Shown here piece after piece: positions 24,835-27,884 of a stretch of DNA of 64,000 nt (positions are counted from its first letter, which is position 1; every line of letters starts with the position of its first letter). The position numbers were made by a program, and so were the translations under genes. Where the stretch lies: the NCBI RefSeq assembly GCF_000160695.1, contig NZ_GG694010.1:121371-185370 (forward strand). Direction: 5' to 3'. Below the pieces are notes generated by a model that was not told where the DNA came from, did not search any database, and saw only the letters and a program-made list of their open reading frames with translations. Origin of the DNA: Centipeda flueggei ATCC 43531 (GTDB lineage Bacteria > Bacillota > Negativicutes > Selenomonadales > Selenomonadaceae).

Positions 24835-24845
24835 GACAAAAATAA

Positions 24846-24884
24846 GGACTGCCATACGAAGTGAAGGATTCCGTACAACAGTCC
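24846..24884 (-). terminator. Terminator of the 78-residue-repeat protein gene
   Basis: A stem of about 15 bp with G-U pairs (GGACTG...GTACGGAA against TTCGTATGGCAGTCC), followed on the minus strand by TTATTTTTG. Confidence 0.7.
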
Positions 24885-24897
24885 ACCATCATCTTGC

Positions 24898-25545
24898 TCA
24901 CGCCTTGATATCAAGATTGCTTCCGACATTCTGAGGAGCACGTGGGCTGACCGCATAGGCGGCCTTGGCCTGCTCCATGCGCTGACTCGTTGCCTGCGCA
25001 CCATTCTGCTGAGCCTCACGAAGCGCACGCTGAAAGCGGCTTGTTCCGATCATCGCAGGATCCAAATTCTGCGCGGTCTGCTGTGTGGCACGTGAGGACA
25101 CTTGCTCGGCAGTCCGCACGATCGTCCGCTGTGTCTGCTGGAACTCACTGGTACCCGCCTTCGTACTCGAACCGAACTTCGAGTCGCTCATGACGGATCT
25201 GACCACATCCATCTTGGCCTGTGTTGCCTGCGCCCCCATCTGTTGTGCCGAACGGTTCGAACGCTGAAATGCACTCGTTCCGAGAGCAGCAGGATCCATA
25301 TTGCGTTCTGACTGCTGCGTTGCGCGCGAGGTGCTCTGCTCCGCCACGCGAATCACATGATCCTGTGTCTGCTGAAATTTGCTTGTCCCCGCTTTGGTGC
25401 CGGAGCCAAATTTCGAGTCGCCGGTGACCGCCTTGACCTCGTTCATCTTAGCCTGTGTCGCTTCACCGCCAATGCGGTGAATTTCACGGTTCGATTGTTG
25501 AAACAGGCTCGAACCAAAGCCTCCTCCAACGGCTGATATAGCCAT
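24898..25545 (-). CDS. Tandem-repeat protein (78-residue unit), unknown function
   Basis: A 215-residue Ser/Thr/Gln/Ala-rich protein with no signal peptide and no Cys or Trp. A 78-residue unit is repeated about 2.3 times: ATQAKM at 29 and 107, DSKFGS at 43 and 121, RATQQ at 74 and 152, DPA at 84 and 162. A shorter motif G(T/S)SxFQ recurs at residues 11, 53, 89, 131 and 167, with spacing alternating 42 and 36. The start is the ATG with GGAGGG 7 nt upstream. It has its own promoter and terminator and lies just after fliK-flgD. I do not recognise the family; a flagellum-associated or cytoplasmic filament-like protein is speculation. Confidence 0.8.
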   Translation of the reverse strand: MAISAVGGGFGSSLFQQSNREIHRIGGEATQAKMNEVKAVTGDSKFGSGTKAGTSKFQQTQDHVIRVAEQSTSRATQQSERNMDPAALGTSAFQRSNRSAQQMGAQATQAKMDVVRSVMSDSKFGSSTKAGTSEFQQTQRTIVRTAEQVSSRATQQTAQNLDPAMIGTSRFQRALREAQQNGAQATSQRMEQAKAAYAVSPRAPQNVGSNLDIKA

Positions 25546-25604
25546 TATGGATCCCTCCATTCCTTCTCTTCATCCCATATTCCCTTGGGATGTTGCGCGC
25601 CCCC

Positions 25605-25633
25605 ATTATAAGCGATGGATATTCATCATGCAA
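25605..25633 (-). promoter_or_regulatory. Promoter of the repeat-protein gene
   Basis: Minus-strand TTGCAT, a 17-nt spacer and a perfect TATAAT, about 60 nt before the start codon. The leader contains a small CATCCC/GGGATG hairpin before the RBS. Confidence 0.6.
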
Positions 25634-25691: not shown

Positions 25692-26216
25692 TTATGCCGT
25701 AGCTGCTTTTAGCCGACCGACACGCACCACTTCGGAGATCTGCACCTTGTGCGACTGTCCATTGACATCGGCGATAATGCTCGGCGCACCGTCTGTGATG
25801 CTCACGCCGATAACTTTGCCTTCAAAGTTCTGCTTCGTTACAGCACCATCTTTGCCCTTTGTCTCTGTAATCCACTGAATTGGCTGTCCAATCATCGAAC
25901 TGAGCTGACCGATCAACACCGAAGAATCGATGTTGTCAACGATCTTGCTGACCTTCTCCAGCCCCTTGGAAACGTTCGTCATCTGCTCAAGTGCCGAGAA
26001 CTGCGCCAGCTGCGAAAGATACTCGGCGTTATCCTGCGGATTGAGGGGATCCTGGTAGCGCATCTGCGTTACAAGCAGCTGCAGGAATGCGTCCTTGCCA
26101 AGTGCACTGTTATCCTTGCTGGCAGCCTTTGCCTGATTCTGTGCCTTCTCATAGTCGGACACCTTCTGAACGACACCGCCGACATTGATCGTATTCAAAG
26201 GATTTGTACTAGCCAC
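25692..26216 (-). CDS. flgD: Flagellar hook assembly scaffold FlgD
   Basis: A 174-residue hook-capping protein. The N-terminal FlgD signature LGKDAFLQLLVTQMRYQDPLNPQDNAEYLSQLAQFSALEQM is unmistakable, and the C-terminal half is a short beta domain (GKVIGVSITDGAPSIIADVNGQ). It caps the growing hook and is exported by the flagellar type III apparatus. It follows fliK by 21 nt. No other hook genes (flgE, TIGR02530 protein) are nearby, so this pair is separated from any main flagellar operon. Confidence 0.96.
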   Translation of the reverse strand: MASTNPLNTINVGGVVQKVSDYEKAQNQAKAASKDNSALGKDAFLQLLVTQMRYQDPLNPQDNAEYLSQLAQFSALEQMTNVSKGLEKVSKIVDNIDSSVLIGQLSSMIGQPIQWITETKGKDGAVTKQNFEGKVIGVSITDGAPSIIADVNGQSHKVQISEVVRVGRLKAATA

Positions 26217-26237: not shown

Positions 26238-27884
26238 TCAGACGCGATAGTCTACGCCTTCCGCGGCAACATTTCCTCTGCTCTCCTGCGTCGTTGACGG
26301 CGCAGTTCCCTCAGCAGCATCCACATCGAGATAGTCATCGGCATCCCCACTCGCATAGGAATGTACCTCTCCGCGACTGCTCTGCTGCTGCCATGCTTCC
26401 TGGCCCTGCCCTTGCGGCATCTGCCCATCGGCAAGACCAGTATAAACACCGACACGATCAACCTTGATCCCCTGCGTGTTCAGTTCCTGCCGCAGCTGGA
26501 CGAGGGAATTCTCTATCACGCTGCGCACGTGGGCATTATCACTGTGGAAGGACGCCTGCACGGCACCGTCAGCACCGACGGCAACGCGCAGGGTCAGTTC
26601 ACCGAGATGCTCCGGCTTCAATCGAATGACCATCTGTGTATCCGTCATCGTACGCAGAAGGCGTGCCTGCTCCACAATCTGACGCGGGATCTCGTAATCC
26701 GTCTGTGGGCGCTGCGGAGTTTCAGGAACCGGTGGAGCCTGCACATCCTGCACAGGCTGCTGCGCAGGAGCCTGCATCGACATCACTTGCGCCGGTGTTG
26801 GCTGGACTGCCGGGGCTTCGGCTGCACGTACTGCAGTCTCAAAGGGCACACCGCCGCGCAGCGCATCGGTCTGTGCTTCACTCTGCATTGGGTGTTGTTC
26901 CTGCTGTGCATCTTCTGCCATATTTTGCTGCATGGCGTCATGACGCATCGTACGCTGGGCAAGAACATCAAGGGGGCTGACCGGCTCAGCGACGGTCTTC
27001 GTTGTCAGATTCTCCCCGACTAAATCAGCGGCACGCTTTCCCTGCCCCTGCACAAGCGTCTGCTGTGCGGCAGCCGTCATCTGTACCGCAGGAACGGCTG
27101 ACGGCTGCACGTTCTGCGTCGTCTGTTCTGATGATACGGAAGGAACAGGCTCAGACACAGATGTCATTTGATCCTGAAGCGCAGCCCGCAGCTGTGCCGG
27201 CATCGCTGCATCAAGTGCAACGAGACGCGCAAGCGCTGCAGCAGGTGCAGTCTGCACAGGGGCGGAATCTGTCGATTCCAAGGCAAGCGGTTCCCCTGAA
27301 AGCGCCAAAAGGAAATTCTTGCTTTTCTCTCCTGCCTCGGGCATCTGCTGAAGAAGATTCTGTACCGTTGTCTGCAGCTTATCATCGCTAAGCTGATCCG
27401 CCGTCAGATCGTAGCGCTTGAGAATATCCGACAATGCCGCGGGAAGTTCTTCTTCCGCGCCCGTGTGGTTCACAAGTGCCGCATTCACATCCACCTGCAG
27501 GAGTGACGCAAGTACAGCAGCCGCCGCACTTGTGTCTGCATCCTTGTCCTCTGCGGAGATTTCTTTTAAAGCATCAGTCTTCCCCTTCTCTGTGGAATCT
27601 GACGCTGCTTTCTTCACATCCTGTGCGTCCTGCGCAGACCCGTTGTTCTGCGCCGCCGCAGGCTTACCCTGCACGGCATCAGCGGAACCATTGTTGGTCT
27701 GGATCTTGGTCGCATTGGCAGTCATTCCCTTTTTCTGCAGTGCGCCCATCGTATCGCTGAACGTATTCTTCCCTGAGGCTGTCTGCGTACGGCTGGCCGC
27801 CGACACATTGCGTGCACCCTGCACACCCGTCCCGGCCGACGTTCCATCCGCGGTCGATACCGCCATAAGATTCCCGGCATTCAT
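26238..27884 (-). CDS. fliK: Flagellar hook-length control protein FliK
   Basis: A 548-residue protein with a long, low-complexity Gln/Ala/Ser/Thr-rich N-terminal region (the molecular ruler) and a C-terminal Flg_hook domain around residues 400-480 (MVIRLKPEHLGELTLRVAVG..GAVQASFHSDNAHVRSVIENSLVQLR). It measures hook length and switches export specificity. The RBS is AGAGGTGAT. A sigma-28-like promoter overlaps the end of radA just upstream. Confidence 0.93.
   Translation of the reverse strand: MNAGNLMAVSTADGTSAGTGVQGARNVSAASRTQTASGKNTFSDTMGALQKKGMTANATKIQTNNGSADAVQGKPAAAQNNGSAQDAQDVKKAASDSTEKGKTDALKEISAEDKDADTSAAAAVLASLLQVDVNAALVNHTGAEEELPAALSDILKRYDLTADQLSDDKLQTTVQNLLQQMPEAGEKSKNFLLALSGEPLALESTDSAPVQTAPAAALARLVALDAAMPAQLRAALQDQMTSVSEPVPSVSSEQTTQNVQPSAVPAVQMTAAAQQTLVQGQGKRAADLVGENLTTKTVAEPVSPLDVLAQRTMRHDAMQQNMAEDAQQEQHPMQSEAQTDALRGGVPFETAVRAAEAPAVQPTPAQVMSMQAPAQQPVQDVQAPPVPETPQRPQTDYEIPRQIVEQARLLRTMTDTQMVIRLKPEHLGELTLRVAVGADGAVQASFHSDNAHVRSVIENSLVQLRQELNTQGIKVDRVGVYTGLADGQMPQGQGQEAWQQQSSRGEVHSYASGDADDYLDVDAAEGTAPSTTQESRGNVAAEGVDYRV

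Follow-up and report, generated by a model that had tools for sequence, protein, structure and literature searches.

We lean towards reading the 215-residue helical-repeat protein described here as a lineage-specific flagellar accessory protein of the Selenomonadaceae, one whose synthesis would be controlled by CsrA and FliW and which would be held in place by its C-terminal tail. The gene lies in the window, the whole 64,000-nucleotide stretch of Centipeda flueggei ATCC 43531 DNA that was analysed, in a genome close to Selenomonas felix, whose orthologue is 83% identical. Judged by its sequence, the protein is a member of a previously unnamed family built of 42-residue helical units and found in flagellated Selenomonas-type bacteria only. 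Three lines of evidence underlie the proposed flagellar role: the distribution of the family, a C-terminal tail shared with the putative motility protein YjfB, and an mRNA leader of the CsrA-controlled type (Table 1).

Table 1. Positions in the window of the repeat gene, its neighbours, its signals and its units
Feature	Position	Strand	Basis or remark
fliK	26238..27884	minus	PF02120, E 2.7e-15
flgD, upstream neighbour of the repeat gene	25692..26216	minus	PF03963, E 1.2e-24
-35 element, TTGCAT	25628..25633	minus	Read in the sequence; cTTGCA in most Selenomonas orthologues
-10 element, TATAAT, 17-nt spacer to the -35 element	25605..25610	minus	TATAAT-like box at the same place family-wide
Leader hairpin 1, CAUCCCA-AGGGAAUA-UGGGAUG, GGA in loop; proposed high-affinity CsrA site	25571..25592	minus	MFE and centroid folds
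Leader hairpin 2, AUGGA-GGGA-UCCAU, holds the Shine-Dalgarno sequence, GGA in loop; proposed second CsrA site	25547..25560	minus	Predicted fold
Coding sequence, 215-aa helical-repeat protein	24898..25545	minus	Stop codon included
Unit 1, 42-residue form, residues 11-52	25390..25515	minus	Motif spacing
Unit 2, 36-residue form, residues 53-88	25282..25389	minus	Motif spacing
Unit 3, 42-residue form, residues 89-130	25156..25281	minus	Motif spacing
Unit 4, 36-residue form, residues 131-166	25048..25155	minus	Motif spacing
Last, partial unit, residues 167-198	24952..25047	minus	Motif spacing
C-terminal tail GSNLDIKA (GxxPhiDPhixA), common to YjfB	24901..24924	minus	Sequence comparison
Intrinsic terminator, 15-bp stem then UUAUUUUU (U-run)	24838..24884	minus	Folding z -3.3

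The repeat gene begins 146 nt past flgD, in a fliK-flgD arrangement. An in-frame ATG upstream, at 25560, is unlikely to be the start, as the GGAGG Shine-Dalgarno sequence between the two positions serves the one at 25545. The preliminary description had credited the gene with its own promoter and terminator, and both are borne out: the sigma70-type promoter TTGCAT-N17-TATAAT (25633-25605) is kept in other Selenomonas orthologues, and the 15-bp stem and U-run behind the gene fold with a z of -3.3. The sole consensus promoter that a promoter scan flagged near the gene, at 24834-24806, is downstream of it and belongs to the following tRNA-Ser.

Searches of the repeat protein against Pfam, NCBIfam, PHROG and PDB sequences gave nothing significant, which agrees with the earlier statement that it has no recognisable domain; a clear resemblance to a described family, which was also sought, did not turn up. 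A tri-helical Pfam match (E 0.015) was weak, fell below the cut-off and was rejected. The protein contains no flagellar Pfam or NCBIfam domain and no recognisable axial domain of the D0/D1 kind. AlphaFold2, given two shallow alignments of 2 and 5 rows, returned one long helix per unit with a pLDDT of 39-50, and because of these values no fold can be argued for the protein. It begins with MAISAVGGG, has a pI of 10.5 and, as had been noted, lacks Cys, Trp and a signal peptide. A literature search found no experiments on the family.

GTSxFQ/GSSxFQ motifs place unit starts at residues 11, 53, 89, 131 and 167, a spacing of 42, 36, 42 and 36 that is followed by a 49-residue end consisting of the last helix and the tail. 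The protein had been described as copies of a 78-residue unit. The copies are real, as residues 11-88 and 89-166 are identical at 47 of 78 positions (60%) and 2000 protein shuffles never exceeded 18/78, and the 42/36 spacing within them stands; agreement with a third, partial copy is 12-16 of 32 residues. However, by comparison with relatives outside Selenomonas, whose consensus is GSSxFQxxNxxIxxxGxxxTxxxMxxAxSYYxVSNFGNETKxG, the underlying unit measures about 42 residues, and the 78-mer is a genus-level doublet of its 42- and 36-residue versions, the shorter being the unit minus six linker residues. Most other genera have the 42-residue form only, and unit numbers in other genera reach about six. 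Most Selenomonas proteins consist of 42+36+tail (136-137 aa counted from the likely start), an arrangement that is doubled in the window protein and in S. felix. The DNA of the two 78-residue copies is identical at 148 of 234 positions (63%), and Tandem Repeats Finder detected no repeat in the gene, so the protein repeat is old.

The suggested survey of homologues for repeat number thus gave a range from about six units down to one. The single-unit homologue, of 108 aa, is encoded on the 504-kb viral contig IMGVR_UViG_3300028886_000026 of IMG/VR (L106:4896-5222). It has no C-terminal tail, and its neighbours on the contig are small phage-like genes along with two radical-SAM genes. Annotated phages (INPHARED) and plasmids contained no copy of the repeat gene.

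CsrA recognizes GGA in hairpin loops, with RUACARGGAUGU as the SELEX consensus (PMC7652899). In the leader of the repeat gene, a hairpin loop and the Shine-Dalgarno sequence each hold a putative CsrA site, making two or more in all, an assignment that the comparison of leaders across the family strongly supports. In the window leader, which is 53 nt long, A(N)GGA sites stand at -38, -18, -13 and -9 relative to the start codon. Within the genus, three of the seven pairs of hairpin 1 are changed on both sides, a sign of covariation, and 94% of its cells are paired, a figure that drops to at most 49% once the partners are slid; the shuffle control for this pairing was modest (27 to 125 of 500). 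Between genera the stems differ while the GGA is kept, as in CUCA-gGGAaag-UGAG, CCCCA-AAGGAUA-UGGGG, CGCAA-AGGA-UUGCG, UACAC-GGAAG-GUGUG, GGUCA-GGGA-UGACU and CUUUGAAA-ACGGAA-UUUCAAAG, with an open GUACAAGGAUG as an alternative.

For the statistics we used 24 family leaders less than 70% alike, and control leaders drawn from ORF predictions. A GGA-loop hairpin is present in 19 of the 24, against 17/90 controls and 27/129 in a larger control set, and shuffled leaders gave 4.3 +/- 1.8 and never more than 9. A two-site rule modelled on PMC4066749, which asks for two or more A(N)GGA sites separated by 10-60 nt, one of them at the Shine-Dalgarno sequence, holds for 20/24 family leaders versus 19/129 controls (p 7e-11, kinship ignored) and, once the genus Selenomonas is set aside, for 15/19 (p 3e-8, kinship ignored). 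The window leader has the sequence marks expected of a CsrA-repressed mRNA: it follows the two-site rule, it has GGA in a hairpin loop, and its genome carries csrA and fliW, which overlap (L087:7683-8353; CsrA PF02599, E 7.7e-25). The leaders of yjfB, which served as a negative control, remained at background (4/20), and yjfB was rejected as a further CsrA target. A single yjfB leader, L132 of genome G028, has a textbook CsrA hairpin, GCACA-AGGA-UGUGC, unlike yjfB leaders generally. A small upstream reading frame seen in some leaders was dropped as its frame is not conserved.

As a positive control, the hag genes on contig C8 of the same genome and in genome G190 each gave a hairpin with an AUGGAU loop and GGA at the Shine-Dalgarno sequence. 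The plan seen in the leader of the repeat gene thus serves flagellin here as well. The genome's own two flagellin genes differ from one another: the copy on contig C6 (L084) is preceded by a sigma28-like promoter and lacks a hairpin of the CsrA type, and the C8 copy (L085) has the AUGGAU-loop hairpin in its leader. The likeness extends to the hag-FliW-CsrA system of Bacillus subtilis, with which the repeat gene would share a plan in which GGA occurs at least twice, both upstream and at the Shine-Dalgarno sequence, together with fliW-csrA in the same genome and a flagellin leader built alike. The repeat gene departs from hag in that it is not flagellin and has a sigma70-type promoter in place of a flagellar-sigma one, and in that its CsrA sites are predictions from sequence. 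A literature search found no paper on CsrA in Selenomonas.

A leader of this type would also give autoregulation to a protein that is itself part of the circuit. We considered a cytoplasmic regulator or scaffold that would act back on flagellin synthesis by binding FliW, CsrA or a chaperone through its repeats. Multivalent repeats in a basic protein would suit such a role, as would the presence of the single-unit homologue on a large viral contig, a regulator being worth borrowing. Yet at no locus examined does the gene lie beside fliW-csrA, the test for co-occurrence of csrA with the repeat gene was not significant (p 0.26), and the protein bears no sequence likeness to known CsrA antagonists; we consider this role unlikely.

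The distribution of the family is consistent with the flagellar accessory role that we favour. A search with the unit profile was positive for 100 of 189 Selenomonadaceae genomes, 155 of which have FlgD and 167 CsrA, and for none from other families among 398 genomes of the phylum. Every near-complete positive genome that was checked has flagella: all 54 positives are flagellated, whereas the non-positives comprise 38 flagellated genomes and 7 without flagella (p 0.003, kinship ignored). Seven near-complete genomes with neither FlgD nor FlhA also lack the gene. Genomes G202, G159 and G153 have the repeat gene and FlhA, with FlgD seemingly missing. G190, with neither FlgD nor FlhA, was rejected as a non-flagellated carrier, for it contains a flgK-flgL-fliW-csrA-fliD-fliS-flagellin cluster. 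The gene is missing from about 38 near-complete genomes with flagella, among them 5 of 14 Selenomonas; it must therefore be dispensable for flagella and is in that sense an accessory. In the five Selenomonas without it there is a clean gap, flgD being followed by the next conserved gene, or, in one, a transposase-like ORF. In G013, a Selenomonas genome without the repeat gene, the site near flgD at which relatives carry it holds a transposase-like ORF (L159:2652-3125).

The position after fliK-flgD holds for the window locus but not as a general linkage, for the survey of homologues found flgD adjacency in the genus Selenomonas only. Elsewhere in the family the neighbourhoods are unrelated to this one and non-flagellar, save for a FliD_C-like gene (PF07195) that lies immediately downstream in one genus (L045) and convergent in another (L060, L065, L111). 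The FliD_C proteins have no sequence relation to the repeat protein and are neighbourhood partners only. They are 275-292 aa long with a C-terminal FliD domain alone (L052:653-1480, L045:6211-7089), and the protein looks like an undescribed cap-like flagellar protein. Its gene adjoins yjfB in Selenomonas, where yjfB follows it, and elsewhere it adjoins the repeat gene. The repeat gene itself lies next to hcp, for the hybrid-cluster protein or hydroxylamine reductase, in genera g16 and g17 (L041, L047, L107), and in L107 a Crp-type regulator follows hcp.

YjfB (PF14070) ends in LGxxPhiDPhixA, a tail that is also present in the window protein. Of 44 repeat-family members, 36 have a GxxPhiDPhixA end, as do 18 of 20 YjfB proteins; 592 other ORFs gave one match, itself a YjfB. 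In four whole Selenomonas genomes the DNA pattern of tail plus stop matches only the repeat gene and yjfB in each, and the same tail pattern occurs at two extra places where the last codon is TGG instead of a stop. Full homology to YjfB was rejected: in a profile comparison only the last 14 residues align, and PF14070 failed to match the window protein even with E values as high as 1 allowed. YjfB is also much shorter (about 57-62 aa against 215), begins with MDIAA or MDMSIAA and has no repeat, and its leaders differ as described above. The two families are nevertheless each restricted to flagellated Selenomonadaceae among the genomes checked, and the genes of both have been seen adjoining the FliD_C-like gene. 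No paper on YjfB function was found in the literature search. From the shared end we infer that the tail of the repeat protein would dock on the partner of the YjfB tail.

These features bear on a further explanation, that the protein is a general surface or cytoplasmic helical repeat protein whose flagellar neighbours are incidental and whose leader hairpins act on translation or mRNA stability without CsrA. The other neighbourhoods outside the genus, several of them next to hcp, and the many flagellated genomes without the gene are what such a protein would predict. It would not predict that all seven of the non-flagellated near-complete genomes checked lack the gene, that in the four genomes searched the tail is otherwise found only in YjfB, or that the leader statistics indicate CsrA-type sites specifically, with yjfB leaders devoid of them. 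We regard this explanation as improbable. The flagellar link survives the loss of flgD adjacency on account of the distribution, the tail shared with YjfB and the CsrA-type leader. Non-flagellar neighbourhoods outside the genus, the roughly 38 flagellated negatives and the lack of significant csrA co-occurrence all count against the accessory role.

Hypothetically, the accessory protein would work as follows. From the CsrA literature we infer that a CsrA dimer would bridge hairpin 1 and the Shine-Dalgarno sequence and so block ribosomes. FliW, freed when flagellin leaves the cell, would relieve this block as it does for flagellin, and the repeat protein would thus be made during filament growth. 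Once docked through its tail on YjfB's partner, the protein could use its helical units, whose number varies between species, as a multivalent arm for a flagellar component or late export substrate.

The repeat protein itself may perhaps be exported by way of the flagellar channel. Export would make the protein a secreted or axial component, a type III export substrate in or on the hook or filament with the number of units setting length or spacing. In favour of this possibility, which we consider less likely than the accessory role, one can count the absence of Cys and Trp, which are rare across the family too, and of a signal peptide, helical units rich in Gln, Ala, Ser and Thr, the place beside fliK-flgD in Selenomonas, and a CsrA-type control, which flagellin, itself exported, typically has (PMC7652899). 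A pI of 10.5, the lack of a D0/D1-like domain or any Pfam flagellar match, the many flagellated relatives without the gene, and a tail held in common with YjfB, a protein without known export, argue the other way.

We also propose, as a speculation that is rather less probable than the accessory role itself, that the repeat protein is a second client of FliW-CsrA besides flagellin, and that, variable in length and docked through the tail that it shares with YjfB alone, it forms an undescribed flagellar module with YjfB and the FliD_C-like protein, one unit of which has passed into a very large phage. What is known of the FliW-CsrA switch in Gram-positive-type bacteria mostly concerns flagellin. 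If our reading is true, an unrelated second target across a family would mean that this switch coordinates more than the filament protein. The shared tail gives the uncharacterised motility protein YjfB a testable partner, and the genes described here offer a testable set for mouth, gut and rumen bacteria in which little genetics is available.
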